A DNA stretch of 64,000 nucleotides from Rhizobium sp. ZPR4. GTDB taxonomy: Bacteria > Pseudomonadota > Alphaproteobacteria > Rhizobiales > Rhizobiaceae. Below the pieces are notes generated by a model. That model was given only the letters and a program-made list of their open reading frames with translations, did no database searches and had not been told where the DNA came from. Numbering within the stretch: position 1 is the first letter of the stretch; every line of letters begins with the position of its first letter. The stretch is taken from the NCBI RefSeq assembly GCF_040215725.1, contig NZ_CP157969.1, positions 1,054,001-1,118,000 of the forward strand. Direction: 5' to 3'. A program made the translations under genes and the position numbers. Of the stretch, positions 19,227 through 28,702 are shown piece by piece.

Positions 19227-22200
19227 TCACGTCACATAGCTTGAGATGACCGCCGCGATTTGATCCGAATTCAGATATGCCATCTGCGAACGCATCAATG
19301 CGAGCAACTGCGTGCTGGAAAGGCTTGCAATATCCTGCGTGGATAGGCCCGCTATGCCGTTCGAGTTAAAAGCTGCGATATCCTTGGTCGAGAAGGTCGA
19401 GAGCTCCTGAGTCGTCAGGGCCGCAACCTGCGCCGAGGTCAGCCCGCTGACCTGGGATGGTGCGAGAGCCTCGGCCTGCGCCGTCGTCAGCGCCGCGATG
19501 ACCCGTGTGGTCAATCCGGCGACTGCCCCCGAGCTCAAGGCGGCAATGTCATCGGTCGTGAAGACGGAAATATCGTCCGTATCCAGTGCCGCGACCTGAA
19601 GGGCGTTCAACGCGCCGATCTGTGACGTTGAAAGAGCGGCGATTTGAGTCGTGCTCATTGCCGCGATCTGGCCATAGCTCAATGAGGCGATCTGAGAGGT
19701 CGTCAGGACGGCGATCTGGTCGCTGGTAAGGGCTGCGACGACAGTGGTGGGCAGTCCCTGGATCGCGTCCGAATTGATCACGGATAGCTCGGCAGTGGAA
19801 AGGGTCGTCAGATCCGCCGTGGTCAGTCCCGCCAGGCCGGCTGAACTCAACGCTGCGATCTGGGTGGTCGTAAGTGCTTCGAACTGCTCAATGCTGAGCA
19901 CCCCGATCTGTGTACTGCTCAGGCCGGCAATGCTGCCCGTCCCGAGTGCTGCGATCTGGGCGGTGGAGAGGGAGGCAATGAAGTCGGTCGACAGGCCCTG
20001 GACCGAGCTGGAACTGATCGCTGCGATATCGGAAGTGGAGAAAGTTGCCAGATCGGCCGAGCTGAGGCCCGCAATGCCGGCGGAACTCAAGGCCGCGATC
20101 TGGGCCGTCGAAAATGCTGCGATCTGATCGACGCTCATTGCGGCGACCTGGGTGCTGCTCAAACCTGCCACGCCCGCCGTGCTCAACGCCGCGACCTGGC
20201 TTGTCGACAAGGCGGCGATATCGCCGGTGCTAAGGACTGCAATCTGCTTTGAGCCAAGAGCTCCGACTTGCGCCGCCGTCAAAGCCTCGACTTGATCAAT
20301 GCTGAGAACGGCGATCTGTGCCGTCGTCAATCCGGCAATGCCGCCCGTGCCCAGGGACGTAATCTGGGCCGTCGACAACGCCGCGACAATGGCAGTCGTC
20401 AGGCCCGACATGGCGCTCGAGCTGATCGCCGCGATATCCGCGCTTGAGAAGGTCTGAAGATCGTCGGTTCCGAGAGCGGCAATCTGCGCCGAGCTGAGCG
20501 CTCCGACCTGGGTAGGCGTTAGAGCCTCGGCCTGATCCGTGCTGAGCGCCGCCATCTGGCTGGTGGTGAGGCCTGTTATGCCGGCTATGCTCAACGCGGC
20601 AATCTGCGCCGTCGACAAGGCTGCGATTGCGGCGGTTGACAGGGCTGACATCGCAAGCGAGCCGATGGCCGCCATATCCGCAGTCGAGAAGGTCGCGAGA
20701 TCGTCTGTCCCGAAAGTGGCGATCTGCTTCGAGGTCAAGGTCCCGATCTGGGTCGGCGTCAAGGCCTCGGCCTGGTCGGTGCTGAGTGCCGCAATCTGAT
20801 CTGTCGTCAGTCCGGCAATCCCGCTTGTGCTCAGCGCTGCGATCTGGTTGGTGGAGAGGGCTTCGATGCCGCTCGTGCCGAGTACCGTGATCTGCTTGGA
20901 AGTGAGCGCTGCAACCTGAGCAGTGGTCAAGGCCTCCAATTGCCCGGTATTCAGGGTTGCTATCTGCGATGTTGTCAGGCCTGCAATGCCGGCTGCGCTG
21001 AGCGCTGCGATCTGATCGGTCGAGAATCCCGCGATCGTCGCCGTCGATAGGCCCGATATGGCACTCGAACTGATGGCGGCGATATCGGCGGTGGAAAAGG
21101 CGTCCAGATCATCAGTGCTGAGCGCTGCGATCTGGGTCGAGCTCAACACACCGATCTGCGCCGTTGTCAGAGCTTCGGCCTGGTCGACGTTGAGAGCCGC
21201 CAGCTGTGCCGTTGTCAGGCCGGCGATCCCGCCGGTGCTGAGCGCGGCGATTTGTGCGGTCGACAGGGCCGCAATATCGGCTGTCGTGAGTGCCGAAATC
21301 TGCTTGGAGCCAAGTGTGCTGATCTGGGCTGTCGTAAGTGCCGCGACCTGGTTGGTGCCGAGAGCCGAAATCTGCAGGGTGGTGAGACCCGCAATGCCGG
21401 CGGTGCCGATTGCCGCGATCTGGTCCCCAGAAAAGGCAGCGATGGTCGCCGTCGACAGGCCGGCGATGGCGCTCGAACTGATGGCTGCGATATCGGAAGT
21501 CGAGAATGTCTGCAGATTGGCAGGGTTCAGCGTCGCAATCTGGCTCGAACTGAGAGCAGCGACTTGAGCCGAGGTCAGGGCCTCGGCCTGGGCAGTATTC
21601 AAGACCGCGATCTGGGCACTCGTCAGACCCGCAATGCCAAGACCGCTCAAAGCAGCAATCTGCGCCGTCGACATTGCGTTTATGTCGGCGGTCGTCAGCG
21701 CGGTTACCTGCTTGGAGCCAAGGACGCTGATCTGTGTCGTCGTCAGGGCTTGCACCTGGCCCGTGCTCAAGGCTGCAATCTGCAGGCTCGTCAGTCCGAC
21801 AGTGCCGGATGAGCTGAGGGCGGCGATCTGCGCCGTCGAAAGCGAGGCTATGTCCGTTGTGCTCAAGGCGGAAACCTGCGCCGAGCTTAGCGCAGCAACC
21901 TGCTTGCTGCTCAAGGCATGGACCTGAGCGGTATTCAAGACTGCGATCTGTTTGGTCGACAGACCGCTGATCCCAAGCGTGCTGAGGGCTGCGATCTGAT
22001 TTGTCGTCAATGCCGCTATCGCGCCCGTGGACAGGCCCGATATGGCGCTCGAGCCGATGGCGGCTATGTCCTGCGTGGAAAATACGGCTATGTCGTCTGT
22101 CGTCAGCGCAGAAAGCTGGGTCGAGTTCAGGGCCGCGACCTGTGCTGTCGTCAACGCCTCGGCCTGGCTGGTGCTGAGCGCAGCGATCTGCTTCGTGGTA

Positions 22201-25200
22201 AGGCCAGCAATGCCCGAGGTACTGAGGGCCGCCACCTGGCTCGTCGACAAAGCGGCGATTGCTGTCGTGGGCACGCCCGATATGGCGGCGGAGGTGAGCG
22301 CCGCAATGCTCTTGGTCGACAGGGCAGCTACATCATTTGTCGTCAATACGGAGAGCTGCGCGGAACTCAGTGCCGCGACCTGTGCTGTCGTCAGTGCCTG
22401 GAGCTGACCGGTGCTCAAGGCGGCAATCTGCTGGGTGGTCAGCCCGGTAATGCCCGATGTGCTGAGGGCTGCGATCTGGGCCGTCGACAAGGCCGCAATG
22501 GCATCCGTCGACAAGCCGGAGATGGCGGCGGCGCCGATCGCGGAAATATCTTTGGTCGAGAAGGTAGCGATGTCGGCGGCACCCAGGCTGCCGATCTGCT
22601 TGGAACTCAGAGCCGCGACCTGAGCCGATGTCAGGGCTTCCGTCTGGTTAGTGTTGAGAGCCGAGATCTGCGCGGTCGTCAGGCCTGCAATGGCCGAGCT
22701 GCCGAGGGCCGCAATCTGCGCCGTCGAAAGGGTCGCGACGATGGTCGGGTCCAAAACCGCGATCTGCGCCGAGCTCAGGGTTGCGATCTGCTTGGTCGAC
22801 AACACATCTATCTGGCCGCTGTTGAGGGCACTGATCTGATCGGTGGTTATGCCAAGGATGCCGGTCGGGCTAAGTGCGGCGATCTGCGCGGTCGAGAAGG
22901 CCGCCAAGGCTGCCGTGGACAGACCGGAAATGGCACTCGAACCGATGGCGGCAATATCCGCGGTCGAGAGGGCAGCGACGTCGCCCGAGCTAAGGACGCT
23001 AAGCTGAGCTGAACTCAATGCTGCGATCTGCGTCGTTGTCAAAGCGGCAAGTTGCGCACTGCTCAGAACGTTGACTTGATCGGTGCTCAGTCCGGAGATT
23101 CCGGCGGTGCTGAGCGCAGCCATCTGGGCGGTCGTAAGCGAAGCGATGCTTCCTGTGCCGAGCGCTGCCACTTGCGATGAGCTCAGCGCGGCAATTCGGG
23201 TCGTGGTCAAGACGGCCACCTGTGCCGTGCTCAAAGCAGCGACCTGATCGGTCGTCAGGCCCGCGACGGTGGTCGTGCCGAGCGCTGCGATCTGATCCGT
23301 GGACAATGAACTAATGACGGATGTGCTGAGACCCGATACCGCCTTGTTTGAAATCGCTGCGATGTCGGCGGTCGAGAAGGTTGCTATGTCATCGGCACTC
23401 AGCGCGCCGAGCTGGGCTGAGCTGAGGGCCTTGACCTGCGCGGTGGTCAGTGCTTCGGCCTGTGCCGTGCTCAGTGCGGCCATCTGCCCCGTTGTCAAGC
23501 CGGCCACTCCAGAGGTGCTGAACGCGGCGATTTGGGCTGTGGAGAGAGAGGCGAAGATATCCGCATCTATGGTCGCGATTTGCGATTGGCTGAGGGCCGC
23601 GATCTGATTGGTGAGCAACGCATCGACCTGGCTACCGCTTAATGCATCGATCTGCGCGGTGCTGAGGCCTGCAATGCCTGCCGTGCTCAAGGCAGCGATC
23701 TGGGCGGTCGTCAGTGCGGCAATCGCATCGGTCGACAGCCCCGACATCGCGGTCGAGGTGATCACGGCGATATCGGCGACGGAAAGGGCGGCGACATCAT
23801 CGGTCCCGAGTGCGGAGAGCTGAGCGGTCTTCAGAGCCGCGACCTGATTTGTTGTCAGGGCTGAGACTTGCGTGGTGTTCAGCGCATTGACCTGGTCGGT
23901 CGTCAGGCCGGTAATCCCGGAGGTGCTTATCGCGGCGACCTGTGCGGTGGACAGAGCGGCGATGACATTGGTGTCGAGGGCTGCGATCTGAGTTGCGCTG
24001 AGAGCCGTCATCCACGATGCCGGCAGGGCGGCAATCTGCGCCGTATTGAGCGCGGTGATCTGGGTCGTCGTCAAGCCGGCGATCCCGACGACACTCAAGG
24101 AGGCGATTTGCTGCGTCGAGAGCGTCGAGATGACGCCGGTGCTCAACCCTGTTACCGCCTTGCTGGAAAGTGCGGCGATTTCGTCGGTCGTAAAGGTCGC
24201 AATGTCGTCCGTTCCGAGAGCGGAGACCTGTGTCGAGCTCAATTTGGCGATCTGGGCCGTCGTCAATGCCTGCGTTTGCGCCGTGCTCAGAGCGGCGATC
24301 TGATCTGTCGTGAGACCGGTGATGCCGGATGTGCTGAGGGCTGCAATCTGGCTGGCGGTAAGGGATGTAACGGTGCCCGTGCTGAGGGCTGCAACCTGGC
24401 TCGACGTCAGGCTCGCGACCTGTGTCGTGCTCAGCGCCGCGAGCTGCGCAGTGCTCAAGGTTGCGACCTGAGTGGTCGTCAGGCTCGCGAGCGTGCTCGT
24501 GGCCAGGGCCGCAATCTGCGCCGTCGAGAGACCGGCGACGGCACCGGTGCTCAAGCCTGCAATCGCCTTGGTGGCTATCGCGGCCAAGTCGGCCGTCGAC
24601 AGGGCCGCCACGTCGTTTGCCGTCAGCGCCGTCATTTGTGTCGAGCTCAATGCCGCAATCTGGCCGGTCGTCAGGCTTGCGAGCTGAGCAGTACCCAGCG
24701 TCGATATCTGGGTGGTCGTCAGGCCGGTGATGGCACTCGTGGTCAGGGCCTCGAGCTGCGCGCTCGAAAGGGAGGCGATGACGCTGGTTGTGAGGCCACC
24801 TATCGACTTGCTGGACAGCGCGGCGATCTCGTCTGTCGTGAAAGTTGCCACATCATCGGAACCCAGCGCGGCAAGTTGAGCGGAACTCAAAATTTTGAGC
24901 TGGCTCGACGACAGCGCTTCGACCTGCGTTGTCGTGAGCGCGGTGATCTGGCCCGTCGTCAGCCCTGTGATCGCGGTCGTGGTCAGTGCGCCAATTTGCG
25001 CAGTTGAAAGGGCTGCAATGTCGTTCGTGCTGATGGCCGCAATCTGGGCTGTTTTCAGCACGCTGATCTGGGTGGTCGTCAAGGCTGCGACCTGTTGCGA
25101 ACTCAGGCTTGACACTTGGCTCGTTGTCAAGCTCGCGACGGCACGCGTCGCAAGGCCCGAAATCTGGGTGCTCGAAAGTGCCGCGACCTGGGCCGTCGTC

Positions 25201-27119
25201 AGGCCCGCGACCGCGCTGGAGCTAAGGGCGGCAATCTGATCGGTCGAAAGGGAGGCGATGACCCCCGTACCTAATCCCGCCACGGCCTTGCTGGTAATGG
25301 CCGCAATTTCCGTCGTCGAGAATGTGGCAATTTCGTCCGCGCCGAGGGCCGAAAATTGCGTCGAACTCAGCGCCGCAATTTGAGCGCTGGTGAGCGCCTC
25401 CACTTGCTGCGTGCTTAGCGCCGCGATCTGATCTGTCGTCAAACCGGCAACGGTGGCTGCTTTCAAAGCTGCGATCTGTCCCGTCGAAAGCGCCGCAACA
25501 ACATCCGTACCCAACACGGCAATTTGGCTTGAGCCCAGGGCCGCGATCTGTGACGTGGTCAGCACGCTCGTTTTTGCCGTGCCCAGAACTGCAATCTGGG
25601 CAGTGCTCAACCCGGCAACCCCTGCCGCGCTTAACGCGGCAACTTGCGCTGTCGACAAGGCAGCGATGGCGGTCGTGCCAAGACCCGATATGGCCTTGCT
25701 GGTGATTGCCGCGATGCTGGCGGTCGAGAATGCGGCGATATCGTCCGTACTCAATGAGGATATCTGGGTCGAAGTCAGCGCTGCGACCTGTGCCGTCGTC
25801 AGAGCGGCAATCTGCGCTGTGGTCATCACGCTGATCTGGCTCGTTGTCAGCCCGGCGATGCCGCTTACGCTGAAGGCAGCAATTTGTGCGGTTGAAAGCG
25901 CTGCGATATCGCTTGTGCTCAAGACCCCGGTCTGCGTCGTTTTGAGCGAATTAATTTGGCTTGTCGTCAATGCGCCGATCTGTACCGTGCTCAGTGCGGC
26001 GATCTGGATGGTGGTCAGGCCGGTAACGGCCGATTTGCTGAGGGCTGCGACCTGTGAGGCCGAGAGGGCCGTAACATCGCCCGCGCTCATGACCGCAATC
26101 TGCGTCGCGGTGAGCGCTGCGATTTGTGCCGTTGTCATCGCGGCGATCTGCGCCGTGCCCAAGGCAGCTATCTGGGCCGTTGTCAGGCCGGATATCGCGG
26201 CCGTGCTCAAGGCGGCAACTTGATTCGTCGCGAGAGAAGAAATGGTTGCTGTCGAGAGGCCTGCGACCGCAGCAGCGGTAATCGCCGCCATGTCATCCGT
26301 CGAAAATGTGGCGATACTACCCGCAGACAGCACGGATAGCTGCGCCGAACCCAGGGCCTTGACTTGGCTCGAGGTGAGAGCCTCGGCTTGCGCAGTGCTC
26401 AGGGCTGCGACTTGCGCCGTCTTCAGGCTGGCAATCGCGCTGGCCGTCAGGGCCGCAATCTGAGCAGTTGAAAACACAGCTACGTCGCTCGTGGGCATGG
26501 CCGCGACCTGCGTCGTCTTGAGAGCGGCGATTTGCGCCGTCGTCAGGGCAGCAATTTGCGCGGTACCCAGGGCCGCAATCTGGCTCGTCGTCAGATTGGA
26601 AATGCTGCTGGTGCTCAATGCCGCGACCTGATCAGTCGAAAGCGCGGTCATTGCAGCGGTCGACAGGCCTGATATCGCCTTGCTGCTGATCGCAGCCATA
26701 TCGTCTGTCGAAAAGGTGGCCAGATCTGCGGCGCTAAGCGCAGAGAGTTGCGATGAGCTCAACACCCGGACCTGAGACGTCGTCAGGGCTTCCGCCTGTT
26801 CGGTGGTCAGAGCCTGGAGTTGCTGTGTCGTGATCGCGGTGATCTGCACGGAACTGAAGCTCTCGATCGCAGATGTCGTCAGGGCGGCCAATTGATCGAG
26901 CGTGAGCCCCGGAATGGCGCTTTGCGAAATCGCACTCAACTGCTGGGAGGTGAGAACCTCCACGTCCTCAGTATCCAGGGCGGCGATCTGCGCCGATGTG
27001 AGAACGCTGATCTGCTTGGTGGACAGCGATGCCACATCTTCCGTGGTCCAGGCTGCCACAGCCGATGTCGAAAGAGATCTGATCTGAGTGAGGCTCAGGG
27101 ATGAAACGATCGAAGTCAT
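19227..27119 (-). CDS. giant protein of uninterrupted 8-residue repeats
   Basis: A 2630-residue protein made wholly of octads with consensus L-[ST]-[TS]-x-[QD]-[IV]-A-[AG]. The length fits 7 N-terminal residues, 327 octads and 7 C-terminal residues, with no shift of register where I read it. Position 1 is Leu, or Phe/Ile/Met at fixed points, position 6 is Ile/Val/Leu, and positions 2-3 are almost always Ser/Thr. The S/T-x-x-Q/D pattern resembles a helix N-capping box, so each octad may form a short helix in a solenoid; a beta solenoid is the alternative. Cysteine was not noticed, and histidine and tryptophan are very rare. No signal peptide, membrane anchor, RTX motif or catalytic domain is seen. 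The ATG at 27119 follows a modest site (GGAAAGAG). flgE lies upstream behind its own terminator, and an OGT-like gene lies downstream. I do not recognise a named family. A surface, filament-associated or adhesive role is inference. Confidence 0.85.
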   Translation of the reverse strand: MTSIVSSLSLTQIRSLSTSAVAAWTTEDVASLSTKQISVLTSAQIAALDTEDVEVLTSQQLSAISQSAIPGLTLDQLAALTTSAIESFSSVQITAITTQQLQALTTEQAEALTTSQVRVLSSSQLSALSAADLATFSTDDMAAISSKAISGLSTAAMTALSTDQVAALSTSSISNLTTSQIAALGTAQIAALTTAQIAALKTTQVAAMPTSDVAVFSTAQIAALTASAIASLKTAQVAALSTAQAEALTSSQVKALGSAQLSVLSAGSIATFSTDDMAAITAAAVAGLSTATISSLATNQVAALSTAAISGLTTAQIAALGTAQIAAMTTAQIAALTATQIAVMSAGDVTALSASQVAALSKSAVTGLTTIQIAALSTVQIGALTTSQINSLKTTQTGVLSTSDIAALSTAQIAAFSVSGIAGLTTSQISVMTTAQIAALTTAQVAALTSTQISSLSTDDIAAFSTASIAAITSKAISGLGTTAIAALSTAQVAALSAAGVAGLSTAQIAVLGTAKTSVLTTSQIAALGSSQIAVLGTDVVAALSTGQIAALKAATVAGLTTDQIAALSTQQVEALTSAQIAALSSTQFSALGADEIATFSTTEIAAITSKAVAGLGTGVIASLSTDQIAALSSSAVAGLTTAQVAALSSTQISGLATRAVASLTTSQVSSLSSQQVAALTTTQISVLKTAQIAAISTNDIAALSTAQIGALTTTAITGLTTGQITALTTTQVEALSSSQLKILSSAQLAALGSDDVATFTTDEIAALSSKSIGGLTTSVIASLSSAQLEALTTSAITGLTTTQISTLGTAQLASLTTGQIAALSSTQMTALTANDVAALSTADLAAIATKAIAGLSTGAVAGLSTAQIAALATSTLASLTTTQVATLSTAQLAALSTTQVASLTSSQVAALSTGTVTSLTASQIAALSTSGITGLTTDQIAALSTAQTQALTTAQIAKLSSTQVSALGTDDIATFTTDEIAALSSKAVTGLSTGVISTLSTQQIASLSVVGIAGLTTTQITALNTAQIAALPASWMTALSATQIAALDTNVIAALSTAQVAAISTSGITGLTTDQVNALNTTQVSALTTNQVAALKTAQLSALGTDDVAALSVADIAVITSTAMSGLSTDAIAALTTAQIAALSTAGIAGLSTAQIDALSGSQVDALLTNQIAALSQSQIATIDADIFASLSTAQIAAFSTSGVAGLTTGQMAALSTAQAEALTTAQVKALSSAQLGALSADDIATFSTADIAAISNKAVSGLSTSVISSLSTDQIAALGTTTVAGLTTDQVAALSTAQVAVLTTTRIAALSSSQVAALGTGSIASLTTAQMAALSTAGISGLSTDQVNVLSSAQLAALTTTQIAALSSAQLSVLSSGDVAALSTADIAAIGSSAISGLSTAALAAFSTAQIAALSPTGILGITTDQISALNSGQIDVLSTKQIATLSSAQIAVLDPTIVATLSTAQIAALGSSAIAGLTTAQISALNTNQTEALTSAQVAALSSKQIGSLGAADIATFSTKDISAIGAAAISGLSTDAIAALSTAQIAALSTSGITGLTTQQIAALSTGQLQALTTAQVAALSSAQLSVLTTNDVAALSTKSIAALTSAAISGVPTTAIAALSTSQVAALSTSGIAGLTTKQIAALSTSQAEALTTAQVAALNSTQLSALTTDDIAVFSTQDIAAIGSSAISGLSTGAIAALTTNQIAALSTLGISGLSTKQIAVLNTAQVHALSSKQVAALSSAQVSALSTTDIASLSTAQIAALSSSGTVGLTSLQIAALSTGQVQALTTTQISVLGSKQVTALTTADINAMSTAQIAALSGLGIAGLTSAQIAVLNTAQAEALTSAQVAALSSSQIATLNPANLQTFSTSDIAAISSSAIAGLSTATIAAFSGDQIAAIGTAGIAGLTTLQISALGTNQVAALTTAQISTLGSKQISALTTADIAALSTAQIAALSTGGIAGLTTAQLAALNVDQAEALTTAQIGVLSSTQIAALSTDDLDAFSTADIAAISSSAISGLSTATIAGFSTDQIAALSAAGIAGLTTSQIATLNTGQLEALTTAQVAALTSKQITVLGTSGIEALSTNQIAALSTSGIAGLTTDQIAALSTDQAEALTPTQIGTLTSKQIATFGTDDLATFSTADMAAIGSLAMSALSTAAIAALSTAQIAALSIAGITGLTTSQMAALSTDQAEALTPTQVGALSSAQIAALGTDDLQTFSSADIAAISSSAMSGLTTAIVAALSTAQITSLGTGGIAGLTTAQIAVLSIDQVEALTAAQVGALGSKQIAVLSTGDIAALSTSQVAALSTAGVAGLSSTQVAAMSVDQIAAFSTAQIAALSSAGIAGLSSADLATFSTSDIAAISSSSVQGLSTDFIASLSTAQIAALGTGSIAGLSSTQIGVLSIEQFEALTTTQIAALSSAGLAGLTTADLTTLSTAELSVINSDAIQGLPTTVVAALTSDQIAVLTTSQIASLSYGQIAAMSTTQIAALSTSQIGALNALQVAALDTDDISVFTTDDIAALSSGAVAGLTTRVIAALTTAQAEALAPSQVSGLTSAQVAALTTQELSTFSTKDIAAFNSNGIAGLSTQDIASLSSTQLLALMRSQMAYLNSDQIAAVISSYVT
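19227..27119 (-). repeat. 24-bp coding tandem repeat array with 7- and 10-octad modules
   Basis: The array has a 24-base unit throughout. Octads group into larger modules. One is 10 octads (240 bases) and carries a DD-x-x-x-F-S-T-x-D-I-A-A-I segment. The other is 7 octads (168 bases) and lacks it. The codon pair marking D-I in the 10-octad module occurs at 20433, 20673, 21081, 21489 and 22065. The spacings are 240, 408, 408 and 576 bases, that is 10, 10+7, 10+7 and 10+7+7 octads. Synonymous divergence between copies is high, so the array looks old and selected rather than freshly duplicated. Confidence 0.85.
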
Positions 27120-27409: not shown

Positions 27410-28702
27410 TCAGCGCTGAAGGTTGACCAGCACGTCCAGCAGGTCGGAGCCCGTCTGGAAGACCTTGGAGTTCGCCGTGTAGCTCTTCTGCGCCTGGATC
27501 ATGTCGGTGAGCTGGCCGGCGAGGTCGACGTTCGATGCTTCCAGCGAGTTCGACTGGATATAGCCCAGGCCGTTGCTGTTGGCGAAGCTCGTGACCGTCA
27601 CGCCGGAATCCGAATTGGCCTGATAGACGTTGCCGCTCAAGAGCGTGAGCTTGTCCGGGCTTGCAACGGTTGCCAACGGGATCTGATAGATCGCCTTCGG
27701 GTCTCCGGTCTTGTAGTTTGCATAGACGACGCCGCTCTTGTCGATCGTGACGCCGGTAACGGGGCTTGCCGCCTGGCCGTTGGTCGAGCCCGTCGAGCTG
27801 AAGTCGCTGGCCTTCTGGGTCATTCCGCTCAGATCCATCGCGATGGATCCGCCCGTCGTTGAATCGGTGATGGCGAATGTCCCACCGCTCGTCAGGTTTC
27901 CGCTTGAATCAAATGTCAATGTCGTCGAACCGACTTCTCCCGGCGGATCCGCATAAGGGAATGACGAGGTGCCGGAGGTGCTCGCATCGGCATTGCGATA
28001 GACGCTAACCTCCCACTGATCCGTCGCGCCCGTGGCGGAATCGGCAGACTGGGTCTTGGTGTAGTAAACGTCATACATGACGGAGTTGCCGAGCTTATCA
28101 TAGGCAACAACCGAGCTCTTCTGGGTATCGGAGGTAACCGAGGTCGGATTGGCGCTTGGCAGCGTCGATGAATCGGTAACGGTCGTTGCATTCGAATTGA
28201 GGTTGCCCGTGAAGGTGCCCGTCGTTGAGGGCGTGCTGGCGAGGCCGCTCTGATTGACATTGATCGGCACCAGGCCGTCGAAGCCGTTGACGACGACGGC
28301 AGGCGCGCCCGACGCATAGGAGTAACCCATCAGGGTATAGCCAGCGGAGTTGACCAGGTTACCATTCGCATCCGGCGTAAAGTCGCCTGCGCGGGTCAGG
28401 ACGGTCTTGCCGTCGGCGCCCTGCACGACGAAGAAGCCGGCGCCCTGGATCGAGAGATCGCTGCTCGACGAGGTGGAGACCGTATCGCCCTGCTGCGAGA
28501 CCGAATAGCTGACATTGGTTTCGACGCTGCCGGAGTTATAGCTGCCACCGCCCGAGGGCAGGATCAACGACGAAAAGCTGGTGCTCGCCGACTTGTAGCC
28601 CGTTGTATTGACGTTCGCGATGTTGTCCGACACGGTGCTAAGCTTATTTGCCTGCGCGTTCATGCCGGAAACTGCCGTTTTCATGCTACCAAAGATGCTC
28701 AT
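27410..28702 (-). CDS. flgE: flagellar hook protein FlgE
   Basis: A 430-residue axial protein. The N-terminal rod/hook motif (SGMNAQANKLSTVSDNIANV, then NTTGYK) and the C-terminal helix (SNVDLAGQLTDMIQAQKSY, ending DVLVNLQR) are diagnostic of hook proteins, and the Ser/Thr/Gly-rich centre is the surface-exposed domain. RBS GAGGAA precedes the ATG. Hook subunits pass through the flagellar type III export channel and assemble into the curved joint between rod and filament. In rhizobia flgE usually lies in the main flagellar cluster. Here no other flagellar structural gene is in the window, so this may be a second copy or a displaced gene. Confidence 0.93.
   Translation of the reverse strand: MSIFGSMKTAVSGMNAQANKLSTVSDNIANVNTTGYKSASTSFSSLILPSGGGSYNSGSVETNVSYSVSQQGDTVSTSSSSDLSIQGAGFFVVQGADGKTVLTRAGDFTPDANGNLVNSAGYTLMGYSYASGAPAVVVNGFDGLVPINVNQSGLASTPSTTGTFTGNLNSNATTVTDSSTLPSANPTSVTSDTQKSSVVAYDKLGNSVMYDVYYTKTQSADSATGATDQWEVSVYRNADASTSGTSSFPYADPPGEVGSTTLTFDSSGNLTSGGTFAITDSTTGGSIAMDLSGMTQKASDFSSTGSTNGQAASPVTGVTIDKSGVVYANYKTGDPKAIYQIPLATVASPDKLTLLSGNVYQANSDSGVTVTSFANSNGLGYIQSNSLEASNVDLAGQLTDMIQAQKSYTANSKVFQTGSDLLDVLVNLQR

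Follow-up and report, generated by a model that had tools for sequence, protein, structure and literature searches.

A giant ALTTAQ-repeat protein paired with a TPR/GT41 glycosyltransferase gene in Rhizobium: a candidate for a glycosylated surface rod

Two described bacterial systems come closest to the gene arrangement analysed here. In Haemophilus, the enzyme HMW1C, encoded at the HMW1 locus, is described as acting on HMW1 in the cytoplasm before export, using UDP-hexoses (PMC3983070), and in Caulobacter the cytoplasmic protein FlmG, which combines TPRs with a glycosyltransferase, is described as binding flagellins through its TPR domain and modifying them (PMC7591256). The locus of interest lies in a 64,000-nucleotide stretch of Rhizobium sp. 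ZPR4 DNA (the window; contig NZ_CP157969.1, positions 1,054,001 to 1,118,000) and resembles the HMW1 locus in that, as judged from the genes, a giant protein and a GT41 enzyme are encoded side by side. HMW1C is an N-linking enzyme with an AAD fold, whereas the neighbour of the array carries TPRs, and HMW1 belongs to the two-partner secretion proteins and has a dedicated outer-membrane pore, neither of which was seen for the window array. The likeness of FlmG to the window enzyme is one of description and not of sequence; FlmG has flagellins as substrates and pseudaminic acid as sugar, whereas the window GT41 gene does not stand beside flagellins, none being recognized by eye among the main open reading frames between positions 221 and 37762 of the window. 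By analogy with HMW1C and FlmG, the TPR/GT41 protein is proposed to decorate the giant protein, here through O-linkage to Ser/Thr. The features concerned are listed below in window coordinates.

27119..19227, minus strand: giant ALTTAQ-repeat protein of 2630 residues, with 328 in-register octads and 782 Ser plus Thr residues
25176..25895, minus strand: residues 409-648 of this protein (30 octads), modelled with a helix of 5-6 residues in nearly every octad
19230..19949, minus strand: its C-terminal 240 residues, in which an alignment-free model continues the octad helices and then forms two longer helices
16800..18881, minus strand: TPR plus GT41 (O-GlcNAc-transferase-like) protein of 693 residues as listed, with a TTG start, next downstream of the array
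27410..28702, minus strand: FlgE flagellar hook protein, upstream of the array on the same strand

The giant protein is a regular octad array from end to end. An earlier sequence-only reading of this DNA, which gave no strand, had counted 7 + 327 × 8 + 7 = 2630 residues; the arithmetic is correct and the register is unbroken. With an octad profile built from the protein itself, all 326 overlapping 32-residue windows chose the same phase, and two of the 328 octads had marginally negative scores. In-phase octads averaged 10.9, whereas 200 shuffles of the whole protein, put through the same scoring, reached -15 at most. A Viterbi parse returned a single unbroken octad run spanning all 2630 residues; loss of register over long stretches, which that reading had named as evidence against itself, was looked for with both the profile windows and the parse and was absent. 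In the arrays of relatives, the same parse revealed register slips, with two runs each in L052, L054, L065 and L067 and seven in L059 (L numbers denote loci and G numbers genomes). The octad consensus is S/T-T/S-x-Q/D-I/V-A-A/G-L, 260 of the 328 octads having Ser or Thr at position 1 and 282 at position 2, and the composition of the protein is dominated by Ala (21.6%), Thr (15.3%), Ser (14.4%) and Leu (11.9%). The plus-strand frame across 19227..27119 is full of stops, and plus-strand open reading frames within the array, such as 21918..23012 with 364 residues, were set aside as probable out-of-frame readings.

At the DNA level the octad copies have diverged, TRF reporting five short arrays with a 24-nt unit, each of 2.0-3.6 copies, and a further one with a 240-nt unit and 1.8 copies. 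The array is nevertheless under purifying selection: compared with its counterpart in Rhizobium dioscoreae it has a dN/dS of 0.11 at a dS of 0.38 over 2630 codons, with no gap column, and since the same 2630 residues are retained without a gap at this divergence, both the sequence and the length of the array appear to be constrained. The arrays of G001 (L049), G003 (L052 and L053), G008 (L076 and L077) and G013 (L057 and L058) are interrupted by runs of N or by contig ends, so that array counts from draft genomes can be too low.

The octad array belongs to an already described repeat family, on which the open-licence literature searched contained no study. Pfam PF20080 (ALTTAQ repeat) covers the whole array in 100 stretches (E 0; 1552.4 bits against a gathering cut-off of 26.4), and each of the 87 PF20080 matches in this genome falls inside the 2630-residue gene; no NCBIfam model matched the array. 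The sequence-only reading had held that no described family contains an unbroken octad array of this size and had named a confident match to a known repeat family as grounds for abandoning that view; with the PF20080 match, and with open-frame arrays of similar or greater size in relatives (for example 3535 and 3539 residues), the claim of novelty falls and the structural reading stands. The profile search for octad arrays across Rhizobiales that it had suggested found relatives in the same order. Neither the Pfam name 'ALTTAQ' nor the name HeliScrew4 (see below) occurs in the open-licence literature searched, which contained no study of the ALTTAQ family, of an ALTTAQ protein or of the pairing of array and GT41 gene.

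A minimal helical solenoid had been suggested for the octads, with structure prediction of a fragment as a check. The model of residues 409-648, the 30-octad segment (48 alignment rows; mean pLDDT 97.0, pTM 0.87), is consistent with this suggestion, and so is the top-ranking one of five models made for the C-terminus from the single sequence (pLDDT 89.8, pTM 0.84), in which the two longer helices comprise residues 2602-2615 and 2618-2629; both segments are predicted to have one helix per octad. A similar last-octad tail is found in 57 of the 74 array-bearing loci among the named enzyme loci described below (the best 80 of at least 562 relatives). Each octad is thus predicted to be one short helix, with Ser/Thr as N-cap and Gln/Asp three residues further on. 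The same octad pattern was detected by phmmer over 104 residues of HeliScrew4 (PDB 9zem, 120 residues; E 5e-16), which, to judge from its deposited name, is probably a designed protein. This likeness is at the level of sequence; fold searches with the models gave no clear match, ARM/importin-type alpha-solenoids included, and 9zem was not among the matches listed.

A relationship to leucine-rich repeats was considered and rejected. Repeats of that class are 20-29 residues long and each include a beta strand, whereas the present unit has eight residues and both models are helical and free of strands. LRR chains were weak phmmer matches (best 6e-6). LRR_EndoS passes the whole-protein Pfam cut-off (58.7 against 27.9 bits), as does Sigma70_r4_2; since no single stretch passes alone for either family, both matches are read as echoes of composition.

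A second period runs across the octads. In the window protein, octads are most alike at spacings of 7, 10, 17, 24, 27, 34, 37, 44 and 51, and Fourier analysis revealed peaks at 0.295, 0.410 and 0.115 per octad, with 9.0, 8.4 and 6.1 times the mean power, respectively, the 9.0 comparing with 2.4 for the best of 50 octad shuffles. A single period of 3.39 octads (27.1 residues) fits all three, as its fundamental and the aliased second and third harmonics. A harmonic fit over 16 arrays, which include orthologues and pieces of one gene (frequencies of 0.2-0.5 per octad; three longest runs per array), gave periods of 3.38-3.43 octads in 17 of the 18 stretches that were 40 octads or longer, which came from 14 arrays; the remaining stretch, of 40 octads, gave 3.32, and two arrays were too short for the fit. 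The strongest single peak was close to 0.295 in 14 of the 18 stretches and otherwise lay at a harmonic or at another value. The array of G028, from another family and 38% identical, has a fitted period of 3.43 (frequency 0.2915).

We read the period as the number of octads per superhelical turn. When the octads are sorted by this phase into seven bins, Gly at octad position 7 is concentrated on a single face, reaching 62% and 46% in two neighbouring bins; Phe/Ile (position 8) and Glu (position 6) gather on other faces. In the Rhizobium arrays, block duplication alone may be the source of the period, six arrays lying on 5/17 (0.294), the value expected from such duplication; the window array and others fit 0.295-0.296, an offset from 5/17 that for the window is below the resolution of one array and with which its third harmonic (0.115, not 0.118) agrees. 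Alpha-solenoids rise by 9-10 Å per turn. If this rise is assumed, the 328 octads, at 3.39 per turn, would form approximately 97 turns and a rod with an estimated length of 90-100 nm.

The gene next downstream of the array encodes a GT41 protein with TPRs. It matches PF13844 (Glyco_transf_41) with 247 bits against a cut-off of 25, passes the cut-offs of TPR_8, TPR_14 and TPR_2, and was matched in profile searches to human OGT and XcOGT, OGT being its closest solved relative. Its GT41 domain keeps many invariant columns across relatives of 40-78% identity. Its closest relative among the best 80 of at least 562 is that of R. dioscoreae (94%), against which its dN/dS is 0.07.

The array and this enzyme are paired across genomes. 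In a set of 31 genomes (that of the window and 30 relatives), a full-length close enzyme was found in eight of the ten genomes with arrays and in none of the 21 without; the two genes adjoin in seven of the eight, divergently in G001, and the enzyme of G003 lies at a contig start. In a sample of 397 genomes from the order, which shares G000 and G028 with the first set, the close enzyme was found in 15 genomes, all with arrays, and in none of the 372 array-free genomes (Fisher P of 6e-6 for the first set and 6e-21 for the second, phylogeny ignored). The cut-off for a close enzyme, E < 1e-150, was set after a gap between 1e-157 and 1e-106 had been seen; seven genomes of the order sample whose best enzyme scored between 1e-106 and 1e-91 had no listed arrays. 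The pair is adjacent in 14 of the 15 enzyme genomes, which span six families (read in the DNA for 13, the window included, and from coordinates for G154), the enzyme of G313 lying at a contig end, and in nine genomes of other families 18-174 bp separate the two genes.

With the enzyme as query, named genomes were scanned and the best 80 of at least 562 confirmed relatives examined; these belong to Rhizobium, Sinorhizobium/Ensifer, Ciceribacter, Neorhizobium, Agrobacterium and others. Several of the loci come from genomes that also appear here under G numbers, L167, L193, L195 and L216 corresponding to G002, G001, G013 and G015, so that the counts are not independent. Open reading frames of relatives were called with a simple GC3-biased caller and arrays detected with the octad profile at a score threshold of 100. 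An array lay within 10 kb of the enzyme in 74 of the 80 loci. The nearest array precedes the enzyme gene in the same orientation in 31 of these, stands divergently upstream of it in 26 and follows it in 17; in the 26 divergent cases the two genes do not form an operon. A second GT41 paralogue (33-39% identity), found elsewhere in the same genomes, stands beside flagellin-like genes in the two loci read (L112 and L116), as expected of an FlmG-like enzyme. The TPR/GT41 protein beside the array is proposed to be the dedicated glycosyltransferase of the rod.

Genes for sugar nucleotides recur around the pair. A UDP-galactopyranose-mutase (UGM)-type gene is present in 56 of these best 80 enzyme loci and lies within 1.5 kb on the strand of the enzyme in 50; the member tested matched PF03275 with 264 bits and fell just under the NCBIfam equivalog cut-off (296.4 against 303.75 bits). 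GalE-like genes are found in 13 of the 80, and a 417-residue protein with a Methyltransf_FA match (PF12248; for example L049:14393-15646) has its gene on the strand of the GT41 gene, no more than 1.5 kb away, in 22. Besides the enzyme, the UGM-type gene and the 417-residue protein, no neighbour cluster occurs in more than 16 of the 80 loci. Among ten genomes of other families, an SDR-type epimerase/decarboxylase gene lies near the pair in five and a UDP-glucose/GDP-mannose-dehydrogenase-type gene in three. Family searches covered two SDRs, neither of which passed an NCBIfam equivalog cut-off, and one dehydrogenase; UXS, UGD, GalE, FtcR/Rem, flagellin, flgD, flgK, flgL and fliD are names given by reading. 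The locus of the window contains no UGM, the nearest in this genome (48% identical) lying on another contig. Judging from the neighbouring pathway genes, UDP-Galf and UDP-Xyl would be the donors. Near the pair in G002, an EF-hand protein (L050:5010-5831) matches the NCBIfam family XopAW, a type III secretion calcium-binding effector family (137.4 against 120 bits).

The reading that we favour, and hold to be somewhat better than an even bet, is that of a rod O-glycosylated in the cytoplasm and then exported to form a long sugar-coated surface fibre, in a manner like HMW1 and HMW1C. The gene product would be an elongated, nearly pure ALTTAQ solenoid with one helix per octad and approximately 3.39 octads per superhelical turn; the adjoining TPR/GT41 enzyme would attach O-linked sugar to Ser/Thr residues of the array while it is still in the cytoplasm, drawing on a UDP-sugar for which the supply genes are often neighbours, namely UGM in Rhizobiaceae and, in some other families, a UDP-glucose-dehydrogenase-type gene together with an SDR of possible decarboxylase or epimerase function; and the glycosylated rod would then be exported to the cell surface, where it could serve in adhesion, spacing or matrix. 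The array as substrate of the enzyme, the identity of the sugar, export and the surface role are all steps that we infer. A more specific version, which we regard as tentative and rather doubtful, is a two-gene system in which the GT41 enzyme coats hundreds of Ser/Thr on a rod of approximately 0.1 µm with an unusual monosaccharide, forming a mucin-like filament, with galactofuranose in Rhizobiaceae and perhaps xylose in other families, the sugar being set by exchangeable neighbouring sugar-nucleotide genes.

Alternatively, the array could be an intracellular scaffold or filament on which the GT41 enzyme places a regulatory mark of the O-GlcNAc type, with no export. Such a role would fit an enzyme whose nearest relative of solved structure is OGT, and also the lack of any Sec signal visible by eye on the array protein. 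That lack counts against the favoured reading too, as do the absence of any recurring exporter gene among the neighbours in the relatives' loci read by eye, the divergent orientation in 26 of the 74 loci and the absence of a UGM from the window's own unit. The relatives of the repeat point the other way. Among the 120 listed (the first 120 of at least 236 protein matches, from 7994 candidates scored), 28 carry PF05860 and 15 PF00353 by our count. These we take to be the TPS and RTX domains, the names of the further Pfam accessions in the list being likewise presumed. The occurrence of the repeats in large proteins with such secretion- or surface-type domains favours the cell surface, and the nearby sugar-precursor genes are of kinds that serve surface glycans; an intracellular role is considered unlikely. 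Most of the 120 have further Pfam accessions and ten show PF20080 alone; the window protein differs from most of them in being an array alone with its own GT41 gene beside it, and neither PF05860 (two-partner secretion) nor PF00353 (RTX repeats) is among its six Pfam families at E up to 1. One member of the family, P0005, is a metagenomic protein of 2492 residues in which 28 ALTTAQ stretches are combined with FlgE_D2 and FlgD_ig domains.

The protein could also be an ordinary ALTTAQ array, the GT41 and UGM genes merely sharing with it an island for surface glycans and having no action on it. Array and enzyme do occur apart, which also counts against the favoured reading: ten of the 25 array genomes of the order sample have no close enzyme, eight of them with five or fewer repeat matches counted, G366 with at least 20 and G280 with at least 25 (these numbers being lower bounds, with up to 18 candidates scored per genome); G016 has two long arrays and only a 36% identical GT41 paralogue; and G008 has array pieces at contig ends only and no close enzyme. 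Even enzyme-bearing genomes contain at least four arrays with no adjoining enzyme (L054, L056, L059 and L065), and no array was detected in the examined DNA of six of the 80 enzyme loci (L175, with an upstream flank of 2.7 kb, L177, L181, L187, L198 and L215). What such sharing accounts for poorly is the restriction of the close enzyme to array genomes (15 of 15, against none of 372) and the short gaps between the two genes in several families, and we judge it quite improbable. In both G013 (L054:9849-17195) and G018 (L065:8984-16252), the further array lacking a GT41 neighbour lies among similar genes, and its two halves are in different octad registers.

The flagellar gene upstream raises a further alternative, a flagellar protein secreted through type III flagellar export and serving either as a fibre attached to hook or filament or as a length ruler. 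FlgE is next upstream of the array both here and in R. dioscoreae (L161:174-1466), the sole such case in the examined DNA of the 80 named loci, which suggests that FlgE is probably outside the system, and in G299 genes reading as flgD, flgE, flgK, flgL, fliD and flagellin (FlgE by BLAST, the others by eye) lie just upstream of the array. The N-termini of the repeat open reading frames are rich in Ser, Thr and Ile and resemble flagellins starting with MTSI (MTSI-SSL type in 35 of 84 called, the others being truncated or different), and P0005 joins ALTTAQ to FlgE_D2/FlgD_ig. An FHIPEP match was present in 24 of 24 array genomes tested, out of 33, yet FHIPEP is common, occurring in 311 of the 397 genomes overall, and the array genome G274 is absent from the listed FHIPEP matches. 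In G085, FHIPEP matches nothing beyond the ~60 C-terminal residues of flhA. A deletion has fused this tail to the beginning of a response-regulator-like gene (L242:9472-10140) and removed flagellar-type genes that G152 has at this place (L243); array and enzyme are intact there, with dN/dS of 0.20 and 0.14, respectively, against G225. The retention of the pair beside a mere flhA remnant disfavours flagellar export, although this selection may predate the loss of flhA. A flagellar function is, in all, very improbable.

A conserved three-gene unit of FlgE, array and GT41 was likewise set aside, FlgE being found in one of the 80 loci and not beside the relatives' arrays examined. In the window, flgE lies 8.5 kb from the GT41 gene; it is the only FlgE-like match of the genome besides FlgG/FlgF-like ones at C1:225-230 kb, and is thus on a different contig from those rod genes.

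The adjacent GT41 gene and the 3.39-octad superperiod are new relative to the sequence-only reading, and it is the paired glycosyltransferase, the sugar genes and this period that make a rod from a known family worth pursuing. The pairing provides a functional handle on a repeat family for which the open-licence literature yielded no study. If cytoplasmic glycosylation and export of the rod are borne out, an enzyme and substrate pair would be added to those of GT41, possibly with furanose or pentose sugars, and the array would represent a natural rod with a length set by the number of octads and a twist that can be read from its sequence.
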